Source: a bacterium (GTDB taxonomy: Bacteria > 4484-113 > JALSIF01). From it: DNA of 22,189 nucleotides. Shown here one piece after another: positions 1 to 14,700 of the stretch. Below the pieces are notes generated by a model. That model was not told where the DNA came from. It did not search any database and was given only the letters and a program-made list of their open reading frames with translations. A program made the position numbers and the translations under genes. Numbering within the stretch: the stretch's first letter is position 1; every line of letters starts with the position of its first letter. The DNA is taken from contig JALSIF010000107.1 of assembly GCA_026981635.1 (NCBI GenBank), positions 1-22,189 on the forward strand, in the 5' to 3' direction.

Positions 1-25
1 AGGACCAGCATCGGGGAGGAGGGGA

Positions 26-220
26 CTAGCGCCAGCTGCGGATGAAGAGCAGGGTGTAGATGATGGCCCAGACGAGCAGGATGATGTAGCTTGCGATAAG
101 AAAAAGGTTCAGCCCCCCCGGGTCCTTCTCTGGCACCAGAAAGGGGTCATCAAGTTTTTCTAGGACGGGAGGCTCACCGCCTGTCTGAACCTGTTGCTGG
201 CTGGTCTTGTTCTCCTCCAT
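26..220 (-). CDS. Small single-helix membrane protein, putative cbb3 oxidase accessory subunit
   Basis: This 64-residue protein has a polar N-terminal half (residues 1-35, rich in Glu, Gln and Pro) and one hydrophobic segment at about residues 38-59, followed by a short basic tail ending RSWR. That is the size and layout of small one-helix subunits of haem-copper oxidases such as CcoQ, but there is no sequence signature strong enough to name it. It starts 9 bp after the ccoO stop in the same direction, so it is probably the last visible gene of the oxidase operon. By position it could help stabilise or assemble the CcoN-CcoO core. It could also correspond to the isolated N-terminal helix of a CcoP-type subunit. 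The reading frame is convincing because of spacing and composition; the function is inferred from position only. Confidence 0.6.
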   Translation of the reverse strand: MEENKTSQQQVQTGGEPPVLEKLDDPFLVPEKDPGGLNLFLIASYIILLVWAIIYTLLFIRSWR

Positions 221-229
221 GGCGGTCTC

Positions 230-1030
230 CTATCTACGCTTGTCCCACCCGCACTCCTCTATGTCGCTAAGGTCAAAGTAGTGGGGCGGGGTGATGTAGG
301 TTACCTTCTCCTCCGGCGGACGGGGAGCCTCAGTGGTGGGGACAGCACCGAGGGTTTCCTCCGCCTCCTCTACTACCGGGATCCAAGGTTTAAAGACCCC
401 CAGGGTCTGAATGTAGAAGACCAGTGCACGGGCATCGCAGGTGGGCTCACCGGTGGGGGTAAAGAGCCAGGTGTAGGCAGGCATGATGGAGCCGGGAACC
501 ATTTCACGAGGATTGAGGAAATGGGCGTAGTGCCAGTCGTCGGTATACTTTCCACCCACCCGGGAAAGGTCTGGACCAGTACGCTTGGTACCCAAGAAAT
601 GGGGGCTGTCAGCCAGGTACTCCCATGCTTCCGCCACCACCGGTGGCTTCTGCTTCCTCCAAAGTAGCTTGCGGTCATAGTCCACATCTCCTCGCCCGAA
701 CATGCGGATGTCGCCATCCAGAGGTCTTACTTGCTGGGAGTGACAGTACATGCAGCCCTCTCGTTTGTAGACCAGCCTACCACGCTCCCATTTATTACGC
801 ATGGCCAGATCCTTGCCTGACAGTTCGCGCTTGGGCTTGAGCATCCAGTCGGGCAGACCGCGGTTGGGGTCCTGTTGAACCTCCTTGGGGATGGTGTTCC
901 AGCCTGGAGTGGCGATGACCGGGATGATCACGGTGGCGATGACGGCAAAGATGAAGAAAGACATCAGGATGGCCACAAACCAGGCCAGGTTTCGCTCGGC
1001 GCGGTGGAAGATGTCATTTTTCCCTGCCAT
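230..1030 (-). CDS. ccoO: Cytochrome c oxidase cbb3-type, subunit II (monohaem CcoO)
   Basis: CcoO is the membrane-anchored monohaem cytochrome c of cbb3 oxidases; it passes electrons to the CcoN haem b/b3-CuB core. The 266-residue protein has one N-terminal membrane helix (about 17-40), a haem-binding site CMYCH at 93-97 followed by SQQVRPL, which matches the CcoO pattern CxxCHSQxxRP, and the conserved block KRTGPDLSRVGGKY at about 149-162. The likely axial methionine is M183 in SIMPAY. Length is slightly above the usual 200-240 because of a proline/glutamate-rich C-terminal tail. The start has a GGAGG ribosome binding site 9 bp upstream, lying over the ccoN stop, so the two genes are translationally linked. 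I am very sure of the family. Confidence 0.95.
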   Translation of the reverse strand: MAGKNDIFHRAERNLAWFVAILMSFFIFAVIATVIIPVIATPGWNTIPKEVQQDPNRGLPDWMLKPKRELSGKDLAMRNKWERGRLVYKREGCMYCHSQQVRPLDGDIRMFGRGDVDYDRKLLWRKQKPPVVAEAWEYLADSPHFLGTKRTGPDLSRVGGKYTDDWHYAHFLNPREMVPGSIMPAYTWLFTPTGEPTCDARALVFYIQTLGVFKPWIPVVEEAEETLGAVPTTEAPRPPEEKVTYITPPHYFDLSDIEECGWDKRR

Positions 1031-1033
1031 CGC

Positions 1034-2497
1034 TTACACCTCCGCCACACTGCCGCCCCCGGTGGCCAGCGCCTCAGCCTCCCGCTCGGTGAGCGCCACC
1101 TTGCGCGGTTCGGCCATGAGCGCAGTCATCACCGCGTTGTAGGCAAAGACGAACATGCTTAGCACCATCATGCTCCCGCCGATGATACGGATCCAGTAGA
1201 AGGGCTGCATGGCTACCACGGTCTCAATGAAGCTCAAAGAGGTGTGCTTCCACAGCCAACCCTGATAGAAACCGCCCACCCACATGTCCAGGGCAAAGAT
1301 GACAAAGCCCCAGATCATCAAGTGGATCTGGACCCACTGAAGGCCACGGGAGTAGATGGGCCGCTTGTACATGATGGGCAGCATGTAGTAGGCCGCCCCA
1401 ATGGCAAAGGCGGTAAAGGCGCCAAACAGGGCCATGTGGGCGTGGCCCACCACCCAGTCGGTAAAGTGGACATACTGGCTCACCGATCGCAGGGCCTGAG
1501 CAGGTCCTTGGATGCAGGTAGCGAGGTAGAAAGTTGTCCCCCAAATGAAGAGGTTTACGATGGGGTTAGTTCGTATCTGCTTGGCCAGGTCAATGGGAGT
1601 GAGATAGAAGTTGGTCACCGCAGTAAAGACCGGAATCAGTAGCAGGACGGAAAAGACAGCCGCTACCGTGGTGAGCCAGGTGGGGATGGGGCCGTAGGTG
1701 AGGTGGTGGGCGCCGTTCCAGGCGTAGATGAAGGCAATGGACCAAAAGCCGATCATGGATAGGGTGTGGCTCCACAGGGGGCTGCGAGAGGCTTTGGGGA
1801 TGAAGTAGTAGGCCAGCGCCAGGCCGGCGGGAGTGGCAATCAGCCCCACCACCATGTGGCCGTAGAACCAGTTGATGTTGGCGTCGTTTACTCCGGTGTA
1901 GCCAGCAGGCCAATTGCCGATGATGTAGACCGCCGCGGTCCAGATCAGGGTCCCCATCATGTACCAGAGGCTGGTGTACATCTGCTTGACCCGACGGTTG
2001 GCGATGGTCTGGAAGAGGACATAGGAGACCAGCACCCAGCTGACCACGATGAGCAGGTCAACCCACCAGGGCCAGTCGGCCCACTCCTTGCCCTGGGTAT
2101 ATCCCAGGGGGACAGAGAAGAGGGCCAGGATGTTGGCGACAAGCCAGATGTAGCCTGCCCAAAGAGCAAGCTTCTCGCTGTAAAGCTTAGTTTTGCAGAG
2201 TCTAGGGGTGATGAATAGGAAAGCAGCCACATTGGCGGAGACCAGCCAGCCGGTTACTACAAGATTGTTGTGAGTTGGTCGGATGCGACCCAAACTTAAC
2301 CAAGCCACTTTGCCGAGAAATTCAGGGAGGACAAATTTGATGGCGGTAATTAGCCCAAGAACTACTCCTATGCACAGGAATGCAATGCTCATAAAAAGCC
2401 AGAAACGGGCCGCTTTGTCCTCGTGGACGACGGGCTGATCATAGCTTCCCGTCTGGCTTACTGGCTTGGCGGTGATTACTGCAGCTGAAGACTCCAT
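1034..2497 (-). CDS. ccoN: Cytochrome c oxidase cbb3-type, catalytic subunit I (CcoN)
   Basis: This is the O2-reducing, proton-pumping haem-copper subunit of a cbb3 (C-type) oxidase: 487 residues with about 12 membrane helices. Conserved metal ligands are visible: H76 in RPTHNN (low-spin haem b), H214 in FYGHMVVG plus H264-H265 in GAHHL (CuB), and H352/H354 in VVGHAH (haem b3 and b). Y258 in FIYAWNGAHHL sits where cbb3 enzymes carry the cross-linked active-site tyrosine on helix VII, which argues against an A- or B-type oxidase. The N-terminal 30 residues are polar and cytoplasmic. It lies between a monohaem cytochrome c gene (3-bp gap) and ccoO (3-bp gap) in one operon. The enzyme usually has high O2 affinity, so it suits microaerobic respiration. 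Confidence 0.96.
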   Translation of the reverse strand: MESSAAVITAKPVSQTGSYDQPVVHEDKAARFWLFMSIAFLCIGVVLGLITAIKFVLPEFLGKVAWLSLGRIRPTHNNLVVTGWLVSANVAAFLFITPRLCKTKLYSEKLALWAGYIWLVANILALFSVPLGYTQGKEWADWPWWVDLLIVVSWVLVSYVLFQTIANRRVKQMYTSLWYMMGTLIWTAAVYIIGNWPAGYTGVNDANINWFYGHMVVGLIATPAGLALAYYFIPKASRSPLWSHTLSMIGFWSIAFIYAWNGAHHLTYGPIPTWLTTVAAVFSVLLLIPVFTAVTNFYLTPIDLAKQIRTNPIVNLFIWGTTFYLATCIQGPAQALRSVSQYVHFTDWVVGHAHMALFGAFTAFAIGAAYYMLPIMYKRPIYSRGLQWVQIHLMIWGFVIFALDMWVGGFYQGWLWKHTSLSFIETVVAMQPFYWIRIIGGSMMVLSMFVFAYNAVMTALMAEPRKVALTEREAEALATGGGSVAEV

Positions 2498-2500
2498 GGC

Positions 2501-3106
2501 TCAGTTCTCACCCTCCTTTACGATCTCCTCCAGGGGGCGGGCAATGGGAGAATCCCGCTCCACCCCTGCGTTGTACTTGATCCAGTTGATGATGTTCCAG
2601 ATGTCAGTTGCACTAAAGGTGGAACCCCAGGCAGGCATTGCTGTACCTGGAATCCCGTTCTTGATGGATATAAAGAGCCAACCATCCGGGCGGGCTTCAA
2701 TCCACTGCTTGATAGTCAGATTCCGTGGACGAGGATCCAGTGAGAAGTAGCGCGGTCCCTTCCCGTCGGCAAGACGGCCATGGCAACCTATACAGTTTTG
2801 AATATAGAGCCTCCTGCCTCGCTCTATGGAACTATCGGTCATCTTGACAGGATTGAGTGGGATGGGGATGTACTCAAAACCCGCCTCCAAGTCGGGGATG
2901 GTCTGGGTCGGAGAGGTGATTTCACTCAGCTCCGGCGGGGCCTTGGAAGTGATCTCTTCCGCTGGGGTTGACTCCTGCTCAGGTTGGGCATAGATATAGC
3001 CCGTGCTTCTGAGACTGAGAAACACTCCAAGCGAGAAAACCGCCAGCACGAAAAGAGCCAGCACCCACACTGACCCAATCTTTGAGGTCTTACCTTCCCT
3101 TTTCAT
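2501..3106 (-). CDS. Membrane-anchored monohaem cytochrome c, CcoP-like domain
   Basis: A class I cytochrome c tethered by one N-terminal helix (residues 11-32). The haem site is CIGCH at 105-109, followed by GRLADGKGP, and the likely axial ligand is M157 in GTAMPAW; this is the CBB3-III-type cytochrome domain found in CcoP. Canonical CcoP has two haems on one chain, whereas this one has a single haem. It may share the CcoP role with the next monohaem cytochrome upstream. The linker at 40-75 is rich in Pro, Glu, Ser and Thr. The frame is open 60 bp further upstream, but I chose the ATG at 3106 because GGAGAGG lies just before it and the signal anchor begins there. The stop is 3 bp before the ccoN start. 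Confidence 0.88.
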   Translation of the reverse strand: MKREGKTSKIGSVWVLALFVLAVFSLGVFLSLRSTGYIYAQPEQESTPAEEITSKAPPELSEITSPTQTIPDLEAGFEYIPIPLNPVKMTDSSIERGRRLYIQNCIGCHGRLADGKGPRYFSLDPRPRNLTIKQWIEARPDGWLFISIKNGIPGTAMPAWGSTFSATDIWNIINWIKYNAGVERDSPIARPLEEIVKEGEN

Positions 3107-3146
3107 CGCGCACCTCTCCTCACCTTGGTTGTAGTGCCCTCTCAGA

Positions 3147-3920
3147 TTACTTCTTCCCCTCACCATCTAAAGCGTGCACCTTCTTCGGTGGAGAAGGAGG
3201 GATCTGCGGAGGAGGGAGTTTAATGCCTTGTTTCTCTTCTAGCTGTTTCCAAAGGGGTCTCTCTGGGGGTGGGTAGGGGATGGGGATTCCTTGGGCTCGG
3301 ACATACTCATATTCACTAGGCGGGATAGTGACGGTCATTCGCTGATAAGCCAGATAACGGGCCAGGGCCTCCACCTCCCAATCGTCCCTGATGTAGATGC
3401 CCATGATTGAGTCGGGTTGGAGGGACTGAGGAGCTTTTATCAGCTGCTTTAGCCATTCAAAACTGCGCCGCAACCCAACACCAGATAGGTCAGGTCCAAC
3501 TTCTCCCCCTTGCCCTAGGATTGAGTGGCAGGTTATACATCCCTTAGTGTAGAAAAGCACCCTGCCCATCTCAGCGCTCTCTAAGTAGCTCTTTGGAGGA
3601 GGGGGAAGGGGAGGAGCGGGATCCAGAGGCTGGTAATCAGGATCACCGGGCCACGGTAAAGTCTTTAAAAAGGCTTCTACTTCGGGAGGGATGCGGTTTT
3701 CCTTGCCCCGGCTAGCTGGCACGGGTAGAGGCTCTTGCTCGGTTGCTGCCTCTTGGATTTCCGACGGCGGGGTCTCAGGAGTTTGACCGGAGCGTATCTC
3801 CAGGCTTTCACTTTGGACCAGGGCAGGAAGAGCAGCCAAGGTGGCAATCAGGATGGACGCAAATGACGCCACCGTAAAGAAGCTTAATCTCGCTTGTCGC
3901 TTCCCGCTTTTACTGATCAT
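3147..3920 (-). CDS. Membrane-anchored monohaem cytochrome c with proline-rich linker
   Basis: A 257-residue cytochrome with an N-terminal anchor or signal (basic residues 4-11, hydrophobic 13-36), then a long proline/glutamate-rich stretch (about 45-115, including a run of prolines near 101-109). The haem-c domain has CITCH at 128-132, preceded by GRVLFYTKG and followed by GEVGPDLSGVG. A methionine in DSIMGIY about 38 residues later is a plausible axial ligand. The C-terminus is again proline-rich. Its start overlaps the end of the tetrahaem cytochrome gene by 11 bp, which indicates translational coupling. The flexible linker suggests a haem head that swings between a quinol-oxidising complex and the oxidase. 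That role is inferred; the cytochrome assignment is secure. Confidence 0.88.
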   Translation of the reverse strand: MISKSGKRQARLSFFTVASFASILIATLAALPALVQSESLEIRSGQTPETPPSEIQEAATEQEPLPVPASRGKENRIPPEVEAFLKTLPWPGDPDYQPLDPAPPLPPPPKSYLESAEMGRVLFYTKGCITCHSILGQGGEVGPDLSGVGLRRSFEWLKQLIKAPQSLQPDSIMGIYIRDDWEVEALARYLAYQRMTVTIPPSEYEYVRAQGIPIPYPPPERPLWKQLEEKQGIKLPPPQIPPSPPKKVHALDGEGKK

Positions 3921-5172
3921 TGTCCATCACCCTACCCTCTTCGGCGGAGCTGGCCTTAGAAACGGGTGAAGAAGCAGTCTTCTTACCGTTCTCATCTCTG
4001 TCTCCTACGCCAGACAGATAACGAACTATCTGCTCCAATTCATCCACATTGGGACGATCCTCTGGTGGTCCCATCAGTGATTCTCGCCCCTCTCCCGGTC
4101 TGGTCCTTACAACCCATTGAGAGGGACGTTGGCTGAGGAGGAAGGTGACAATGGCATATACCTCTCGGGCAGCCCAGGGGTCACGCCTTGGGTCCAGCCC
4201 CTCGTTGTACTCATAGGGGTATATTCCTTCATGCCGCTCCCTGAGGATTTCCTCCTCCACCTCAGGTGTACTGAACAGGAAAGGCATCTTGGTGTCTGCT
4301 TGATTGGCGGCTGGATTCCAGAGGGAGAGTTCAATGTACTCCCAGCGAAACTGCTCGCCTATCTTGGTCAGTTCTGGTCCAATCTGTCCCCAACTGAGGC
4401 CATCAATCTTGTGGCATGAGTAGCATCCCCGGGCAAAAAACAGCTCTCTACCCAGCTTCACCTGGTCCATGGAGAGAACTCCCTGCCCCTCCACATAAGG
4501 ATAGGGGTGACAAGAGACACATAGGGCCTGGTAGTACTTCTTAACACGAAGCTCATCCCCCATAAAGACGGGGTCTAGCCATCGCTCAAAGCGCTCATCT
4601 TTGTATGCCTGACCGAGGAGGTAGTTCTTAGCCTCACCGAATCCATGTGCATCTGCCAGGGTCAATCCCCTTCCATTTCCGGCGTGGCAAGAAGTACAGG
4701 AGATCTCTGTGAACTTGTGGGGAGAAATGTCAGGGTGGGCGACCAAGGCCTTCTCCAGCAACCGTTGCTCCTCAGGAGTAAACTGGTTAAAGTCTGCAAA
4801 GGACACTCCCCCTTCAAACATAGGGTTTTCAATTGCTGCGTGGCACGTGGTGCATCGCTGGATCTCTACCGTTCCCCACTCTTCATTTACAATGGTTTGC
4901 TGGGAAATCTCTGGGAAGAGCTGCCGGACTGCTCTCCGTACAGCGTACATCCCCTTTACCACCGCATTGGCTCCCTCAGGTGGAATAAGGGCTCTCTCAC
5001 GAAACTGCTCCTTCACCCCGGGATCTTCGGCCAGCTGGTAGGCTTTCAAATAGTAAGCCTCCCTGTAGATGGAGAACTCACGGTTTTTCTGGGCTGAGTA
5101 GTAAAAGGTAATCAACACTGAAAGGAAAGCCACTGCCGTTGCCAGTCCAAGCGCAAAGTAGAGCCTGCTCAT
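3910..5172 (-). CDS. Membrane-anchored tetrahaem cytochrome c
   Basis: A 420-residue protein with one N-terminal membrane helix (about 5-26) and four CxxCH haem sites: C107-H111 (CTTCH), C159-H163 (CTSCH), C218-H222 (CVSCH) and C250-H254 (CYSCH). The last site sits in a class I-like segment (LGRELFFARGCYSCHKIDG ... GPELTKIG). The C-terminal tail beyond 390 is polar and probably disordered. It lies directly after cytochrome b and Rieske, where cytochrome c1 or f would be encoded in standard bc1 or b6f operons, so it is probably their c-type electron acceptor. It is unlike c1 or f. A GGAG site about 9 bp upstream supports the ATG at 5172. I do not recognise a named family beyond multihaem cytochrome c. 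Confidence 0.88.
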   Translation of the reverse strand: MSRLYFALGLATAVAFLSVLITFYYSAQKNREFSIYREAYYLKAYQLAEDPGVKEQFRERALIPPEGANAVVKGMYAVRRAVRQLFPEISQQTIVNEEWGTVEIQRCTTCHAAIENPMFEGGVSFADFNQFTPEEQRLLEKALVAHPDISPHKFTEISCTSCHAGNGRGLTLADAHGFGEAKNYLLGQAYKDERFERWLDPVFMGDELRVKKYYQALCVSCHPYPYVEGQGVLSMDQVKLGRELFFARGCYSCHKIDGLSWGQIGPELTKIGEQFRWEYIELSLWNPAANQADTKMPFLFSTPEVEEEILRERHEGIYPYEYNEGLDPRRDPWAAREVYAIVTFLLSQRPSQWVVRTRPGEGRESLMGPPEDRPNVDELEQIVRYLSGVGDRDENGKKTASSPVSKASSAEEGRVMDNDQ

Positions 5173-5227
5173 CCTTCAATCTCCACCACTTGAGGATTTC
5201 TCCAGCAAGTTGCCCTCCTCCTTCCCC

Positions 5228-6562
5228 TCAACCTTTCCCTAGCGGTGGCAGGTTCCACGGAAGGATAAACTCCCAATTGGGCCCTCGGAAGTAGGTTCCA
5301 AGCACGATGAAGAAAATGTTCAACAGGACAAAGGCGCCAAAGAGGGAGTTGACCAACAGGCGCCGGCGGTGGAACCAGACACCCTTGCCAACAATGCCTG
5401 CCCGATCTAAGTAGGGAGTGAGGGCAAGCAGAGTCATTACAATGCCGGGAATTCCAATCCCTCCCCAGAAGGCGTCGTAACTGACTAGTTCCTGGAGCCC
5501 CAAGAAGTACCAGGGAGCTTTGGAAGGGTTGGTGGGATGGGCCGGATTAGCAGGTTCCTCTAATGGTGCCTGGATGAGCAGTGAAACCACAGTTAGCACC
5601 GCAAAAAGCACCGCAAAGACGATCACTTCACGAAGTATCAGGTCTGGCCAAGAAAAAACCCTATCCTTGAGTTGGCGCTGGACAGTGGGGCGGGAAGCAT
5701 CAGCAATGCCGAGAAGACCGTAGGTTTTGGTTGTCCCGGGGAAACTAAGGTCCTTGCGGCGATGAAAACCGGTCACCGTCTTCTTCATCCCCAGATCGGG
5801 GGTGACATTCCTGGGGTGATGGGTCAGACCACCGTCCTTATGTATGCGCCAGAAGTGGACCGCGATGAGCACCGCAGCCGCTAGTGGAAGGACTATTACG
5901 TGGAGGGTGTAAAACCGGATCAGTGCCTCCTGTCCTAAGGTGGTTGAACCAATCAGTACGTAGCGGATCTGGGGACCTATCACCGGGGTGTAGCTGGCAA
6001 TGGAAGTTCCCACTTGGATGGCCCACAGGGCCAGCTGGTCCCAGGGGAGCAGATAGCCCGTAAATGAAAGAAATAGGGTTAGTAAGAAGAGCCCAATTCC
6101 CACTACCCAGTTAAACTCCTTGGGCTTGTAGTAGCAACCGGTAAAGAAGACCCGCGCCATATGGAGGAAGACAAACAGCACCATGGCATGGGCTGCCCAT
6201 CGGTGCATATTTCTCAGATAGTCCCCAAACAGCACCGAGGATCGCAGGTCCAACATGCGGGCGTAGGCCTGCTCCACCGAGGGGACGTAGTAGAACATGA
6301 GCAGGATGCCGGTGATGGTGAGGATGATGAAGAGATAAAAGGAGATGAGGCCGAAGCCCATGGTGTAGGTGAAGCGGAGGGTCTCGGTGGTGCAGGTGGA
6401 GGACTGGAAGTGGAGAAACAGGTTGTTGAAGGTGGTCTGAACCCGAGTGCGGTCGTTTTTGGAGCCCATCTCGGTGGGCCATATTGACTTGACCACGTTC
6501 TGGGGAAGGTTGACCAGAACCTCCCAGAAACTGGTCTCGTAATCAACTCTCTGTCCCGGCAT
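5228..6562 (-). CDS. Cytochrome b of a Rieske/cytochrome b (bc-type) complex, full-length fusion
   Basis: This is the quinol-oxidising membrane subunit, 444 residues, holding the b6-like four-helix part and the subunit IV-like part in one chain. Haem b ligands are H120 and H134 (13 residues between them) and H221 and H236 (14 between), the spacing of b6-type proteins. The Qo-site motif is PWY at 350-352 (KAPWYFLGLQE) rather than PEWY; such variants are common in menaquinol-using bacteria. I see no cysteine where b6 carries the covalent haem c(n) attachment. A polar loop of about 60 residues (242-305) joins the two halves, and a 60-residue cytoplasmic segment precedes helix A. A GGAAGGG site precedes the ATG at 6562. 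It lies between the Rieske and tetrahaem cytochrome genes. Confidence 0.94.
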   Translation of the reverse strand: MPGQRVDYETSFWEVLVNLPQNVVKSIWPTEMGSKNDRTRVQTTFNNLFLHFQSSTCTTETLRFTYTMGFGLISFYLFIILTITGILLMFYYVPSVEQAYARMLDLRSSVLFGDYLRNMHRWAAHAMVLFVFLHMARVFFTGCYYKPKEFNWVVGIGLFLLTLFLSFTGYLLPWDQLALWAIQVGTSIASYTPVIGPQIRYVLIGSTTLGQEALIRFYTLHVIVLPLAAAVLIAVHFWRIHKDGGLTHHPRNVTPDLGMKKTVTGFHRRKDLSFPGTTKTYGLLGIADASRPTVQRQLKDRVFSWPDLILREVIVFAVLFAVLTVVSLLIQAPLEEPANPAHPTNPSKAPWYFLGLQELVSYDAFWGGIGIPGIVMTLLALTPYLDRAGIVGKGVWFHRRRLLVNSLFGAFVLLNIFFIVLGTYFRGPNWEFILPWNLPPLGKG

Positions 6563-6613
6563 TGCCCTTCCTTTCTCCCGACCTCTCTTGTCTTAGCCCG
6601 TCCTGGCTGTCTG

Positions 6614-7135
6614 CTAGATGATTTTGATGAAGTGGGTGGACTTGGCCTTCTTGGTCTTGGAGGGATCTAAGTCTACGGAGGTGTCAATCTCAAGCTCACC
6701 GTTGGGAAGCTTGTAGACTGGGTGCCAAGCCAAGTGGCGCGGGGCTGGTCCGGCAATGACATTGCCAAAGGCGTCGTATTGGCTTCCGTGACAAGGGCAT
6801 TTAAAGTCGCCTTCTCGGGTAGCAACCGTGCAACCGAGGTGGGTGCAGATATTGCTAATTACACCGATGGTGTCACCCCTTCGCCATATGGTAGCCTTGG
6901 CCTCGGCGAAAAATACCCTGACATCATCCGGGTAGTCCTCCAAGCGTCCAATCTTGAACTTCTTGGAGGGTCCCACATCCACCGCAGGCCAGAAAAAGGC
7001 CCCCATCAACAGGGCTGTACCGCCAGCTACACCTAGGCCAACGAGCCCGGTGACAAAGTTGAGGAACTCCCGCCGGGTGGTTTTCCTCACCCGGGGGACC
7101 CGGTTTGTGGGATGGCTTGAGCTATACGTTGACAT
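6614..7135 (-). CDS. Rieske iron-sulfur protein
   Basis: This is the mobile [2Fe-2S] subunit that takes one electron from quinol at cytochrome b and hands it to cytochrome c. In 173 residues it has a twin-arginine-type N-terminus (TTRREFLNF, 19-27) and one anchor helix (about 28-48), then the cluster-binding boxes CTHLGC (97-102) and CPCHGS (113-118). Expected ligands are C97, H99, C113 and H116, with C102-C115 as the disulfide. The motif [12 protein letters not shown] following box 2 is typical. Its start overlaps the end of the upstream CcoS-like gene by 14 bp and is preceded by GGAGG. Family assignment is certain; whether it belongs to a bc1, b6f or hybrid lineage needs a tree. Confidence 0.95.
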
Positions 7136-7319
7136 ATCTCTCAGCCTCCTCCTCCTCTAGCAGAGGTTGAAATTTTGCCTCCTCCAGATTGTCAAACTCT
7201 CCCTGCCGAATGGCCCAGACAAACCCTACGAGTCCCAGAAGCCCAAGGCCAATGGCAAAGACAATCTGAAGGATCAGTGACGGAACCAGGTAATTCCCAA
7301 CGTCCACAATTTCGCTCAT
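7122..7319 (-). CDS. ccoS: CcoS/FixS-like small membrane protein
   Basis: This 65-residue protein has one membrane helix (about 12-36) followed by [20 protein letters not shown], which closely matches the FixS/CcoS pattern of a helix, then W-x-x-(R/K)-x-G-(Q/E)-(F/Y)-D-(D/N)-L. In proteobacteria CcoS is needed for assembling the haem and copper centres of cbb3 oxidase. Here it is not next to ccoNO: it sits between the oxidoreductase and the Rieske gene. Its ATG overlaps the oxidoreductase stop as ATGA, so the two are translationally coupled. It may be a true assembly factor for the oxidase encoded further down the same operon, or a structural small subunit of the cytochrome b complex that shares this motif. 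Confidence 0.75.
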
Positions 7320-9346
7320 CCTGCCACCACCTCCCTTGAGGGAAGCTGAACCCGCTCAGCCAGGGGAGGACCACCGTTGGTCTCACCTGGCTTTACCACC
7401 ACGTAGCTTTCCCTGATATCAAAGCTGTCCATGGTCATGGCGTGGGTGGGACAGCGGTAGGCACACAGCCCACAGCGGATGCAGATGGTCTCGTCCTTGA
7501 GCAGAGCGGTGGCCCGCTCGGCAAGCTCATCCTCCCGGCCCTCCTCAATGAGGGCGCGGGCGTCAATGCCGTACATGTTTAGCATGAAGCGGTTGATCTC
7601 ATCGGTGATCTCAATCTCGTCCAGCGTGACGAACTTGAGGCAGTCCATCGGGCAGACATCCACGCAGCCGTTGCAGAGGACGCAGAGTTCGCTGTTGTAG
7701 GTGGGCTGGATGTGGCAGCGCAGGCAGCGGTTGGCCTGGCGGACCGCCTCCTGCTTGGAGTAGATGAACTCCACCTGGTCGTTGGTGCGACGCCGGCGGG
7801 CCGGATCCAGCTTGGGCGGGTCGCGCCGCTCGTAGTCCAGATACTCCTCCCGGCAGATCATCTCCCGGGTGTAGTTCTCAATGGTGTGGACCTCAAAGGT
7901 GTAGCTTCGGGTGATGCGCTCGCCGGTTAGGTACTCGTGGATGCCGGCGGCTGCCCGCTGGCCGGCTGCGATGCAGGTGATAAACAGGCTCGGCCCCACC
8001 GAGATGTCGCCGGCGGCAAAGACCCCCTCCAGGTTGGTGGCGCCGGTGAGAAAGTCAACGTCAATGTAGCCGCGAGGAGTGAGGCGCAGGTTCTTTAGCT
8101 CACCCACCATGAAGTTGTCCAGCACCCGCTGACCGATGGCGAAGTAGACGGTGTCAAACTCCCAGAATTCCTCGCTGTCGTCAATGATTACCGGGCTGAA
8201 GCGGCCGTCCTCGTCAAAGGCCCGCGCCACCCGCTGGGTGATCACTCCCTTTACCCGCTTACCGTGGACCGGGTCGGGCTCGGTGACGATCTCCTTGAAG
8301 GTGTAACGGTTGTGGAGGTAGATGCCCTCCTCCATGAACTCCTCCACCTCGGCGTCGGTGGAGGGCATCTCCTGGCGCGATTCAACAGTGAACATGTGGA
8401 CCTCAACCTCGGGGTCCAGCTCCTCCTCGGGCACCACCGGGTGGTCGCGCCTGACTCCGTAGGCGTAGCGCAAGGCGGTGCGCACCACGTCGCAGGCCAC
8501 CAGACCTCCCCCCAACACGGCGATCTTCTTGCCGCACTCGGGGCAGTCCTTGCCCAGCGCCACATCGGCCAGGAAGTCAATCCCCGCCCTCACTCCGAAG
8601 GCGTCGTGGCCGGGGATACGAAGCACGCTGCCCTGCCAGAGGCCCACCGCAATGAGCAGGGCCTCGTAGCCCTGCTCCCTGAGCTCCTCCCAGGTCACAT
8701 CCTTGCCGAAGGTAACCCCGCACTTCAAAGTTATACGGGGCAGAGATAGGATCGCCTCGCACTCCCGCTGAATCAGCTCCCGCTCCAAGCGGAAAAGGGG
8801 CACCCCGTACTGCATCATCCCGCCCGGCTCGGGCATCATCTCAAGAATGAGCACCTCATAGCCCAACCGGGCCAGGTCATGGGCGGCGGTAAGCCCCGCT
8901 ACACCCGCTCCCACGATGGCCACCTTGTGGCCGTTGGGAGGCGGATTCAGCGTGCCGGCGGCGTGGGAGTAGCGCAGGGTCTCGGCCGGATCGCGCACCT
9001 CAACTCCATAGAAGTTGTTGATGTAGCGCTTGAGGGCCCGGATGGAGACCGGATTGTCGTAGTCCTTGCGGCGGCAGGCGGTCTCACAGGGCGCCCCGCA
9101 TACCTTGCCACACATGGAGACGAAGGGGTTGTTGGCCCGGGCGTAGGCGTAGCCCCGCTCATACTCCCCGTTGGCCACCGCCAGCACATAGCCCCGCCCG
9201 TCGGTCTGGACCGGGCAGGCCTCCATGCACTCAATCAGTCCGCGAAACTCAAGCAGGTCGGGAAGAACGGCGTGGTACTTCTGGTCGGCGTAGTAGATAT
9301 CCTTGATGACCCTACCGCCAGGCTGCTGCCAAGGATTTGTCACCAT
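7316..9346 (-). CDS. GltD-like FAD/NAD(P) oxidoreductase with C-terminal dicluster ferredoxin domain
   Basis: A 676-residue cytoplasmic flavoprotein. Residues 35-92 hold the GltD-type iron-sulfur cysteines (C40, C44, then C79, C83, C87, C91). A first dinucleotide fold starts at GAGVAG (146-151), a second GGG site is at 279-281, and the FAD motif GVFAAGD is at 441-447. The C-terminus adds C541/C544 and two ferredoxin motifs CxxCxxCxxxCP (555-566 and 622-633). Such proteins move electrons between NAD(P)H, FAD and iron-sulfur partners. There is no glutamate synthase large subunit nearby; instead it heads the Rieske/cytochrome b/cbb3 operon, so it may be an electron-input or bifurcation module. 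I chose the ATG at 9346 (AGGA 8 bp upstream) over the in-frame GTG at 9364. Confidence 0.88.
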   Translation of the reverse strand: MVTNPWQQPGGRVIKDIYYADQKYHAVLPDLLEFRGLIECMEACPVQTDGRGYVLAVANGEYERGYAYARANNPFVSMCGKVCGAPCETACRRKDYDNPVSIRALKRYINNFYGVEVRDPAETLRYSHAAGTLNPPPNGHKVAIVGAGVAGLTAAHDLARLGYEVLILEMMPEPGGMMQYGVPLFRLERELIQRECEAILSLPRITLKCGVTFGKDVTWEELREQGYEALLIAVGLWQGSVLRIPGHDAFGVRAGIDFLADVALGKDCPECGKKIAVLGGGLVACDVVRTALRYAYGVRRDHPVVPEEELDPEVEVHMFTVESRQEMPSTDAEVEEFMEEGIYLHNRYTFKEIVTEPDPVHGKRVKGVITQRVARAFDEDGRFSPVIIDDSEEFWEFDTVYFAIGQRVLDNFMVGELKNLRLTPRGYIDVDFLTGATNLEGVFAAGDISVGPSLFITCIAAGQRAAAGIHEYLTGERITRSYTFEVHTIENYTREMICREEYLDYERRDPPKLDPARRRRTNDQVEFIYSKQEAVRQANRCLRCHIQPTYNSELCVLCNGCVDVCPMDCLKFVTLDEIEITDEINRFMLNMYGIDARALIEEGREDELAERATALLKDETICIRCGLCAYRCPTHAMTMDSFDIRESYVVVKPGETNGGPPLAERVQLPSREVVAG

Positions 9347-9378
9347 CGCTCGGTTCCTACCCACCTAATCCTAGCCCA

Positions 9379-9396
9379 CCTCACCGGAGGGTGAGG
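9379..9396 (-). promoter_or_regulatory. Hairpin in the 5' leader of the respiratory operon
   Basis: CCTCACC and GGTGAGG form a perfect 7-bp stem with a 4-base loop. It lies just downstream of the minus-strand -10 box, so it would be at the very 5' end of the respiratory mRNA. It is not followed by a T-run and so is not a terminator. It could stabilise the message or act as a binding site; no function is shown. Confidence 0.5.
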
Positions 9397-9403
9397 CGGG
9401 GAA

Positions 9404-9409
9404 ATTATA
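9404..9409 (-). promoter_or_regulatory. Predicted -10 box of the respiratory operon promoter
   Basis: A perfect TATAAT on the minus strand, about 57 bp upstream of the oxidoreductase ATG. This predicts a leader of about 50 bases. No good -35 hexamer is visible at 17 +/- 1 bp, so an activator may be needed. Confidence 0.55.
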
Positions 9410-9471
9410 CCATCTTTGTGAAGATTATCACTTAGCTAACCCTTCCATCGCCAGCCCCCACCCGGCCTCCC

Positions 9472-9477
9472 TATAAT
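9472..9477 (+). promoter_or_regulatory. Predicted -10 box for the NAD-salvage pair
   Basis: A perfect TATAAT on the plus strand, 20 bp upstream of the first ATG. This gives a predicted leader of about 14 bases with no Shine-Dalgarno sequence. The -35 region is GC-rich and unlike TTGACA. It is divergent from the respiratory promoter, with about 62 bp between the two -10 boxes. Confidence 0.5.
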
Positions 9478-9497
9478 GGCGCCCAGAGCCGATATTC

Positions 9498-10874
9498 ATG
9501 AGCCGCTACCTCAACACCGACCTCTATGAAGTGACCATGGCCCTGGGCTATCTCAGGGCTGGGATGGCCCATCGGGAGGCCCACTTTGAACTCTTCTTTC
9601 GCGACCTGCCCAGGCGGAGAAACTTTGTAGTGGCAGCGGGGGTTGACCGGGCGGTTGAGTTTGCCCAGGGCTTCAAGCTGGACGGAGAGGACATTGACTA
9701 CCTGCGCGCCGTTCCCGCCTTCGGATCCATCGCCGATGAACTGTGGGAGCAGCTGGAGGCACTTCCGCCTCCCCTGCGCATCTACTCGGTGAGGGAGGGG
9801 GAGGTGGTGTTTCCCCACGAACCGGTTGTCCGCATAGAGGGACCCCTGGCCACCTGTCAACTCCTTGAGACGGCGATCATCTCCCTGGTCCACTATCCAT
9901 CGGTGGTGGCCTCCAAGGCGGCCCGGGTCCGCTTCGCCTGCCGGGGAAAGACCTTCCTGGAGTTCGGCATGCGCCGGGCTCCCATGCTGGAGGCGGCGCT
10001 GGAGGCCAGCCGGGTGGCCTACATGGTGGGGGCGGATGCAGTGAGCAACACCGAGTGCGGAAGACGCTTCGGGATCCCGGTGGCGGGGACCATGGCCCAC
10101 TCCTGGGTGATGAGCTTCCCCACTGAACGGGAGGCCTTCCAGAGCTTTATTGAGACCTTTCCAGAGCTTGGCATCCTGCTCATTGACACCTGGGGGGTTG
10201 AGCATGGGCTCTCCTCCGCCCTCCAGGTGGACGGCAGGCTAAGGGCGGTGCGGATAGATTCCGGCCGGCTAAAGGAAGAGACCCGCTGGGTGAGACGGAT
10301 GCTGGACCAGGCGGGAAAGGAGAAGGTGAGGATCATCCTCTCCGGCAACTTGGACGAATACATCATTGACGAACTTTTGCGGGAGGGGGTGCCGGTGGAC
10401 TCCTTTGGGGTGGGTACCGAGATGGTCAACTCCACCGACAGCCCCAAGATCTCCTACATCTATAAGCTGGTAGCGGTGGAGAATGGGGAAGGGAAACTCA
10501 GGCCCACCATAAAGATAAGCCCGGGCAAAAAGACCTGGCCCTGGGGAAAGCAGGTGCTGAGGCGGCTTGAGGATGGGGTGATGGCAGGGGACCTGATCAT
10601 CCGCCATGACGAGGAGGGCTATCCCGGCGAGCCGCTAGTTAGGCTACGCTGGAGCCGGAAAGAAGGCTGGCGTGAGCCGCCACGGCAGTTGGAGGAGAAC
10701 CGCCATTTCTGCATCTCCAGGCTCAACCAGCTTCCCCCAGGACTGCGCGACCTCTATGAGACCCGTCCCTACCCGGTGGAGATCAGCTCCCGGCTAGAAA
10801 GGGAACGCCGTGCACTGGAGATGCTGGAACTTGCCCGGGTGAACCTAAAGGGTGAGCGGGCAGGTAGAAGATAG
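9498..10874 (+). CDS. pncB: Nicotinate phosphoribosyltransferase
   Basis: This enzyme makes nicotinate mononucleotide from nicotinate, PRPP and ATP, the committed step of the Preiss-Handler NAD salvage route in the cytoplasm. The 458-residue protein opens with the family signature TDLYEVTMA (residues 7-15) and has FRDLPRRRNF, EFGMRRAP, VAGTMAHSWVMSF and DSGRLKEETRWVR, all typical of the bacterial NAPRTase family. Length falls between the E. coli enzyme (about 400) and the Bacillus/human type (about 490-540). The C-terminal 90 residues follow the family pattern. The ATG at 9498 matches the usual N-terminus; there is no Shine-Dalgarno sequence. The nicotinamidase gene follows 32 bp later, giving a two-step nicotinamide to NaMN unit. 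Confidence 0.93.
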   Translation: MSRYLNTDLYEVTMALGYLRAGMAHREAHFELFFRDLPRRRNFVVAAGVDRAVEFAQGFKLDGEDIDYLRAVPAFGSIADELWEQLEALPPPLRIYSVREGEVVFPHEPVVRIEGPLATCQLLETAIISLVHYPSVVASKAARVRFACRGKTFLEFGMRRAPMLEAALEASRVAYMVGADAVSNTECGRRFGIPVAGTMAHSWVMSFPTEREAFQSFIETFPELGILLIDTWGVEHGLSSALQVDGRLRAVRIDSGRLKEETRWVRRMLDQAGKEKVRIILSGNLDEYIIDELLREGVPVDSFGVGTEMVNSTDSPKISYIYKLVAVENGEGKLRPTIKISPGKKTWPWGKQVLRRLEDGVMAGDLIIRHDEEGYPGEPLVRLRWSRKEGWREPPRQLEENRHFCISRLNQLPPGLRDLYETRPYPVEISSRLERERRALEMLELARVNLKGERAGRR

Positions 10875-10906
10875 GGAGAGGGAAATGCCACCTGGAGGTG
10901 GAAGCG

Positions 10907-11554
10907 ATGGCGCTGGTCTTCGTGGACATTGACACTCAGTTTGACTTCATGGACCCCCAGGGCAAGCTTTATGTCCCCGGGGCGGAGAAGCTCCAGGAAA
11001 ACCTGCGGCGGCTGACCGAAATTGCCCGGGAGCGTGGCATCCTGGTCATAGCCACGGCGGACAACCATCCAGAAGATGCGGAGGAGTTTGCCGAGTGGCC
11101 CCCCCACTGTGTGATGGGAACCCCGGGCCAGCTCAAGATGCCCTACACCTCCTTTGCCAACCCCTTCCGGGTCCCCTGGCAGGAACCTCCCAAGGCAGAG
11201 GAGATCCCCCTTGAGGGGCAGGTGATCATTGAGAAGAACGCCCTCTCCTGCTTTACCAATCCGAGCTGTGACCCATACCTCAGGCGGGTGGCCAAGGAGC
11301 TTAGCGGGGATGAGCCGGTCACCTTTGTGGTCTATGGGGTGGCCACTGACTACTGCGTGAGGGCGGCAACGCTGGGGCTTAGAGAGCGGGGATACCCGGT
11401 GATGGTGGTTGAGGACGCCATTGCCGGGGTAAGCGAGGAGACCACCAAGCAGGCCCTGGAGGAGATGCGCCGGGCTGGGGCCCAGTTTGTCACTACCGAC
11501 CAGGTAGTGGAGATGGTCGGGCACGGAGTTCCCCAGGCCAGAGAGGGAAGCTAG
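10907..11554 (+). CDS. pncA: Nicotinamidase (isochorismatase-family cysteine hydrolase)
   Basis: It is likely to hydrolyse nicotinamide to nicotinate, feeding the enzyme encoded just upstream. The 215-residue protein has the cysteine hydrolase triad: D9 in DTQFDF, K110 in IIEKNALSCF and C150 in YGVATDYCVRAA. D52 and H54 (ADNHP) and H67 (PPHCVMGTPG) fit the metal-site positions of nicotinamidases. I chose the ATG at 10907, because GGAGG lies 8 bp before it and the beta-strand ALVFVD starts there, rather than the GTG 9 bp upstream. The isochorismatase superfamily is broad, so the substrate rests on motif detail plus adjacency to nicotinate phosphoribosyltransferase; together these make nicotinamidase likely. 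Confidence 0.88.
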   Translation: MALVFVDIDTQFDFMDPQGKLYVPGAEKLQENLRRLTEIARERGILVIATADNHPEDAEEFAEWPPHCVMGTPGQLKMPYTSFANPFRVPWQEPPKAEEIPLEGQVIIEKNALSCFTNPSCDPYLRRVAKELSGDEPVTFVVYGVATDYCVRAATLGLRERGYPVMVVEDAIAGVSEETTKQALEEMRRAGAQFVTTDQVVEMVGHGVPQAREGS

Positions 11555-11762: not shown

Positions 11763-14638
<2,876 letters not shown>

Positions 14639-14658
14639 TTCCTTCCCCTTGACCTCAG

Positions 14659-14700
14659 CTCGGACTGGGATCCACGCTGGCCGCCCGCTGGATAGGTACG
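14659..14700 (+). other. 3' strand of the 23S precursor processing stem
   Basis: Bases 14659-14682 are complementary to 11711-11734 over 24 positions, with two positions changed only to G-U wobbles. AGGTACG at 14694-14700 pairs with 11693-11699. It closes the precursor around the 23S and confirms that the rRNA unit contains 23S alone. Confidence 0.85.

Follow-up and report, generated by a model that had tools for sequence, protein, structure and literature searches.

A conserved operon joining an NAD(P)-linked Rieske/cytochrome b complex to a CcoP-less cbb3-type oxidase, and its possible role in O2-driven NAD(P)+ reduction

The stretch of DNA analysed in this work (the window, 22,189 nucleotides, JALSIF010000107.1 of assembly GCA_026981635.1) is one entire contig (G000:C107) of a bacterial genome of 1.75 Mb that is 85% complete. 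On its minus strand, from 9346 to 26 and close to the contig end at position 1, lies an operon of ten co-directional genes, which encodes a GltD-like NAD(P)/FAD oxidoreductase, a Rieske protein, a cytochrome b, three further c-type cytochromes and the CcoN and CcoO subunits of a cbb3-type oxidase (Table 1). The tight packing described in an earlier note made from the sequence alone (the original prediction) is confirmed by the minus-strand coordinates: the largest gap is 55 bp, the gltD/ccoS junction shows ATGA coupling (7316-7319), and overlaps of 14 bp and 11 bp are found, respectively, between ccoS and the Rieske gene (7122-7135) and between the genes for the tetrahaem and the following monohaem cytochrome (3910-3920). 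Family motifs had been reported for every gene; Pfam and NCBIfam assign families to nine of the ten, leaving only the one-helix protein at the end of the operon without a match. A pattern search of positions 1-11000 gave a single sigma-70-like site on the minus strand, ahead of gltD (9431-9404), and no promoter-like site inside the ten-gene cluster, so this search gave no sign of internal promoters splitting it. Terminator-like patterns number 15 (9.0 +/- 3.4 in shuffles) and are mostly within genes.

Table 1. Genes of the operon and the promoter-like site upstream of it.
Feature	Position	Strand	Size and basis
GltD-like NAD(P)/FAD oxidoreductase	7316..9346	-	676 aa; alternative GTG start 9364; Pfam PF14691, PF07992, Fer4; NCBIfam PRK12771-type
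CcoS/FixS-like one-helix protein	7122..7319	-	65 aa; PF03597, TIGR00847 above cut-off
Rieske 2Fe-2S protein	6614..7135	-	173 aa; PF00355
Cytochrome b, b6-type core fused to subunit-IV-like part	5228..6562	-	444 aa; PF00033/PF13631
Tetrahaem c-type cytochrome, N-terminal hydrophobic helix	3910..5172	-	420 aa; four CxxCH; Cytochrom_C domain
Monohaem cytochrome c	3147..3920	-	257 aa; PF00034; CITCH
Monohaem cytochrome c, CBB3-III-domain-like	2501..3106	-	201 aa; alternative ATG start 3166; PF13442
CcoN, haem-copper oxidase subunit I	1034..2497	-	487 aa; PF00115
CcoO, monohaem subunit II	230..1030	-	266 aa; PF02433; CMYCH
One-helix protein	26..217	-	63 aa; no Pfam match
Promoter-like site upstream of gltD	9404..9431	-	GTGATA-16-TATAAT, TG before second hexamer; pattern match only

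The GltD-like protein combines an N-terminal Fer4_20 domain (with its cluster-binding Cys set), the FAD and NAD(P) Rossmann motifs, and a C-terminal two-cluster ferredoxin domain with two [4Fe-4S] motifs and further Cys. Its Cys ligands and Rossmann motifs are kept across 17 homologues, wherever those regions are present. For the Rieske protein, the first and third matches in the PDB are 9rk4 and 9rk3, which, going by title and date, are apparently the Rieske proteins of Kuenenia from PMC12954380, while the top matches of the cytochrome b are cytochrome b6 chains. In the latter protein the haem-ligand His residues (His120/134 and His221/236) are conserved, with b6-like spacing in the second pair. 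At the other end of the operon, CcoN has the cbb3 CcoN 3mk7 as its best PDB match and, when aligned with it and with 25 other CcoN sequences, keeps the haem b, haem b3 and CuB ligand His as well as the active-site Tyr. A Gln at the position equivalent to E323 was considered as a signature of the operon and rejected, being common in many CcoN sequences.

Conservation of the gene order had been named beforehand as a test of the original prediction, and it was surveyed by searching CcoN in 385 genomes and reading the neighbourhoods of the best matches, followed by one contig scan. The window order was found in the genome G356 (locus L077; L094 is the same contig, from bacterium Dive96_bin1.51, a deep-sea-labelled metagenome-assembled genome, MAG), and the contig scan added one MAG labelled 'Deltaproteobacteria' (L110) and six from the Chlamydiales (L096-L101), as well as partial loci in L095 and L102. 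A Gammaproteobacteria record (L111) matches the Chlamydiales locus L097 gene for gene, is probably mis-binned and was excluded from the count. A gene order shared by such distantly related genomes goes beyond chance, and the operon is confirmed as real. At every oxidase-linked locus with conserved order, a small FixS-like open reading frame (ORF) lies between gltD and the Rieske gene (read directly in L077, L110, L096, L097 and L100, and by similarity in L098, L099 and L101); the ones from all three conserved loci checked exceed the FixS cut-off, and no CcoS-like gene was detected in other Rieske/cytochrome b loci. Additionally, a tree of GltD proteins separates an oxidase-linked group (98/98) from a NosZ-linked one (100/100). 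The cytochrome b tree repeats this grouping, with the oxidase group weakly supported (56/90). The simplest reading would be a single origin, followed by transfer between phyla. In one of the Chlamydiales MAGs (L099:2332-4179) gltD is split into two adjacent ORFs, by a frameshift or a sequencing error.

The same loci are informative about the cytochromes. Seven CxxCH sites are present in the cytochromes and CcoO (4+1+1+1), in agreement with the seven c-type haems counted originally, and the proposed relay finds its counterpart in L077 and in the Chlamydiales, where one seven-haem chain covers the tetrahaem and monohaem proteins of the window (six haems were read in L110). In particular, the CBB3-III-like monohaem cytochrome matches the C-terminal part of the fused protein of L077 with 43% identity, and the tetrahaem cytochrome is a conserved partner of cytochrome b in many loci. 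With a mean pLDDT of 50, the AlphaFold2 model computed for the tetrahaem protein was discarded. No CcoP was found in the window by CxxCH motifs and Pfam (the contig stops at position 1), and none is present in the L077 operon either, where a pair of small ORFs lies after ccoO, together with a gene for a CcoG homologue and an ORF in which a P-type-ATPase motif was recognised by eye. The role of CcoP may have been taken over by the monohaem and tetrahaem cytochromes. One-helix ORFs similar to the last protein of the operon also lie after ccoO in L077, L110 and the Chlamydiales, two of them giving weak, sub-threshold FixP_N matches, and this protein may be a CcoQ analogue, or correspond to the N-terminal anchor of CcoP without its haems.

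The part made up of the NAD(P), Rieske, cytochrome b and multihaem proteins is found well beyond this operon, as a widespread module that also accompanies other terminal reductases. A gltD gene adjoins a cytochrome b and a multihaem c gene in at least 30 of the 385 sampled genomes (a lower bound, about ten split-cytochrome-b matches having been left unread). Within 9 kb and on the same strand, the partner is NosZ in seven genomes, a molybdopterin oxidoreductase in another seven and ccoN in two (the source genome itself and G356); in the remaining ones it was not recognised, often since the contig ends. The idea of the GltD arm as an oxidase-specific feature was thus abandoned, and the new element is the coupling of the core module to a cbb3-type oxidase. 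It could be supposed that the gltD-like gene, as a member of the broad GltD/PRK12771 superfamily, is a chance neighbour with an unrelated cytosolic function. This is very improbable, and a chance neighbourhood was rejected in view of the conservation: the gene adjoins Rieske/cytochrome b genes in all these genomes, next to different terminal reductases, and its C-terminal Fe-S extension is conserved. Among the individual loci, the L047 module also lies beside an HAO-like multihaem gene, and G356 carries three gltD-bearing Rieske/cytochrome b modules (that of L077 with the cbb3-type oxidase, and L154 and L182, of which one has a molybdopterin oxidoreductase and one is cut by the contig end). 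A different linkage between complex III and cbb3 is seen in another genome (L080:9094-17231), in which a pair of bc-type cytochrome b genes lies close to ccoNO and gltD is absent.

The source genome contains a second module, on contig C261 (L037:283-11733), with gltD, Rieske, cytochrome b and pentahaem cytochrome genes, whose neighbours encode a Sec-dependent NosZ (clade II type), NosD, and nos transporter-like and NosL-like proteins; the same NosZ arrangement is found in four class relatives (G001, G004, G007 and G008). These clade II nos modules share gltD, Rieske, cytochrome b and multihaem c genes with the operon, and differ from it in their terminal NosZ, in the pentahaem cytochrome, in having no CcoS-like gene and in falling into separate GltD and cytochrome b tree groups. 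As reported in PMC13274427 (citing Hein et al. 2017), clade II N2O respiration in Wolinella is served by a Rieske/bc complex. Two cytochrome b matches, both gltD-linked, and one haem-copper subunit I over the cut-off (the operon's own CcoN) are present in the source genome, together with two copies of NuoH (complex I); neither a cytochrome bd nor an NrfD-family protein was found in it. With one O2-linked and one N2O-linked reductase locus, each quinol:cytochrome c complex would be tied to its own terminal reductase, as far as a genome of this completeness can tell.

This tie also bears on the question of whether a single assembly is encoded. The Rieske/cytochrome b complex with its NAD(P) subunit and the cbb3-type oxidase may be co-transcribed for microoxic respiration and work as co-regulated but separate complexes, without any supercomplex. 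Contact cannot be read from operon structure alone, and at L080 the oxidase genes accompany bc-type cytochrome b genes with no gltD. We nevertheless regard this explanation as improbable, given that the c-type cytochromes are a single fused protein in other lineages, that the window encodes no CcoP, and that both cytochrome b complexes found in the genome sit with their own terminal reductase. From the dedicated respirasome originally proposed, what stands is a genetically linked chain from quinol to O2 with a flavo/Fe-S NAD(P) arm; that it is one physical assembly is not established.

Among described systems, the nearest relatives are the Rieske/cytochrome b complexes of anammox bacteria that include an NAD(P) oxidoreductase, known from Kuenenia as Kustd1480-1485 and Kuste4569-4574 (PMC12954380). 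Rieske potentials of this type were measured above +300 mV, and NAD(P)H production from quinol is only a proposal (PMC12954380). One of the two complexes is still without a suggested driving reaction. The operon resembles them in its related Rieske protein, in the b6-type cytochrome b with subunit IV, in the multihaem c replacing cytochrome f, and in a putative NAD(P)/FAD subunit carrying several Fe-S clusters (recognised in the window by its Rossmann motifs and conserved Cys sets). On the other hand, the partner is a cbb3-type oxidase instead of an HAO-like protein (Kuste4569-4574) or an unknown reductase, a tetrahaem and two monohaem cytochromes take the place of the hexa/octahaem c, the cN Cys is missing, as is a long insertion in the subunit IV part that may encode extra helices, a CcoS-like protein is present, and cytochrome b and subunit IV are fused. 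Because the cN Cys and the hexa/octahaem subunit were looked for and are both absent, we did not file the operon as anammox-type; it is a relative, probably working similarly, with an oxygen reductase as partner.

Comparison with oxidase systems leads to a similar picture. Like the cbb3-type (C-family) oxidases, the operon encodes a CcoN with haem and CuB ligands, CcoO and a CcoS-like protein; unlike them, it is joined to complex III and an NAD(P) arm and has no dihaem CcoP, a lack that keeps it from being a full cbb3 cluster of the classical kind. The III-IV supercomplexes (actinobacterial bcc-aa3 and Rhodobacter bc1-cbb3, PDB 6xkw) likewise couple a quinol:cytochrome c reductase to an oxidase through a bound cytochrome c, whereas the system of the window, known here from its genes alone, has a b6-type cytochrome b, a multihaem c and an NAD(P) oxidoreductase. 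CcoN/O and PetBD have been described in Chlamydiae (PMC9816063), and a separate ccoPON in Scalindua (PMC13253579). In the open-access literature the parts are described separately and no description of the whole operon was found, so it is apparently an undescribed variant.

Starting from the gene set and its linkage, the motifs, the conserved order, the fusion of the cytochromes and the swapping of partners, we infer the physical assembly, the docking side, and the path and direction of the electrons as follows. A b6-type Rieske/cytochrome b complex would oxidise quinol, and the Rieske branch would deliver electrons to the tetrahaem and monohaem cytochromes, then to CcoO and CcoN, and finally to O2. 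The GltD-like FAD/Fe-S protein would dock on cytochrome b at the cytoplasmic side, where, by analogy with what has been proposed for the anammox complexes, its arm would take the low-potential electron of the bifurcated quinol oxidation and reduce NAD(P)+, driven by the half-reaction in which O2 is reduced. That the genes encode a chain dedicated to quinol:O2 respiration and equipped with an NAD(P) arm, whichever way the arm runs, is in our judgement quite likely. The statement as a whole, in which the arm reduces NAD(P)+ by bifurcation (direction included), is a plausible reading which our analysis stops short of making probable. More tentatively still, the operon may represent a conserved O2-driven menaquinol-bifurcating respirasome with a CcoP-less cbb3-type oxidase, in which O2 reduction would directly drive NAD(P)H formation and whose core would be re-used with N2O reductase and molybdopterin oxidoreductases.

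The direction of the arm is where a serious rival has to be considered. The GltD-like protein may instead oxidise NAD(P)H or reduced ferredoxin and feed cytochrome b and the quinone pool, and thence O2, in a way likened to the ferredoxin/FNR-linked quinone reduction at cytochrome b6f. Gene linkage and motifs are equally compatible with this NAD(P)H-input chain, the FAD/Fe-S modules of this superfamily work in both directions, and the operon is carried by Chlamydiales without evident need for NAD(P)H from quinol. We consider it somewhat unlikely: with complex I genes in the same genome, a non-pumping entry would waste energy, the same ground on which such a direction is opposed by the anammox authors (PMC12954380). 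The availability of complex I for NADH oxidation, together with the presence, among the recognised partners, of reductases for high-potential acceptors (O2, N2O), favours quinol-driven NAD(P)+ reduction. The original prediction took NAD(P)H or ferredoxin as the donor; the NAD(P) arm is upheld, while the donor role is not established, the nearest complexes being proposed to run from quinol to NAD(P)+ (PMC12954380).

Several points weigh against quinol-driven bifurcation. Assembly and electron direction are deduced from sequence and not from biochemistry, the absences in the source genome are provisional because of its incompleteness, and the Chlamydiales carriers speak here as they did above. 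The Cys of the cN haem is absent from the region of the window cytochrome b equivalent to b6 Cys35, as it is from the other oxidase- or NosZ-linked cytochromes b aligned; a Cys at this position is kept in six of seven Rieske/cytochrome b modules without gltD (L032, L034, L035, L039, L046 and L048). The window cytochrome b also lacks an insertion of ~70 residues present in L033, L047 and L049, a segment that may be the counterpart of the additional helices in subunit IV of the anammox complexes. Finally, His51, which is conserved and might ligate the extra haem b proposed for the anammox complexes, was tried as a sign of an electron path to GltD, and does not discriminate because modules without gltD have it too.

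Divergent from the operon are pncB-like (9498-10874, plus strand) and pncA-like (10907-11554, plus strand) genes of NAD salvage, named by eye, and the region between the operon and the pncB-like gene has TATAAT-type boxes on both strands; an apparent 23S rRNA gene (about 11770-14700, plus strand) was also seen by eye. The G+C content of the operon is 57%, compared with 63% in the other genes of the contig, about 62-63% in three other contigs and 59% in C261, so that the flanking genes agree with other contigs of the source genome. Within the operon, gltD is host-like (63%, GC3 0.84) and the rest is lower, and this lower G+C would fit acquisition. As a test of the assignment of the contig to its bin, pncB was uninformative, with matches in class relatives no better than elsewhere.

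In the operon an anammox-like complex has an oxygen reductase as its partner, whereas its sister module elsewhere in the genome has an N2O reductase; such natural variants reveal their driving oxidant through their gene content. The bifurcation proposal, a disputed route to NAD(P)H, would in this way become testable outside anammox bacteria. More generally, the swapping of partners suggests that the design is interchangeable, with a single electron-splitting module serving a variety of terminal reductases.

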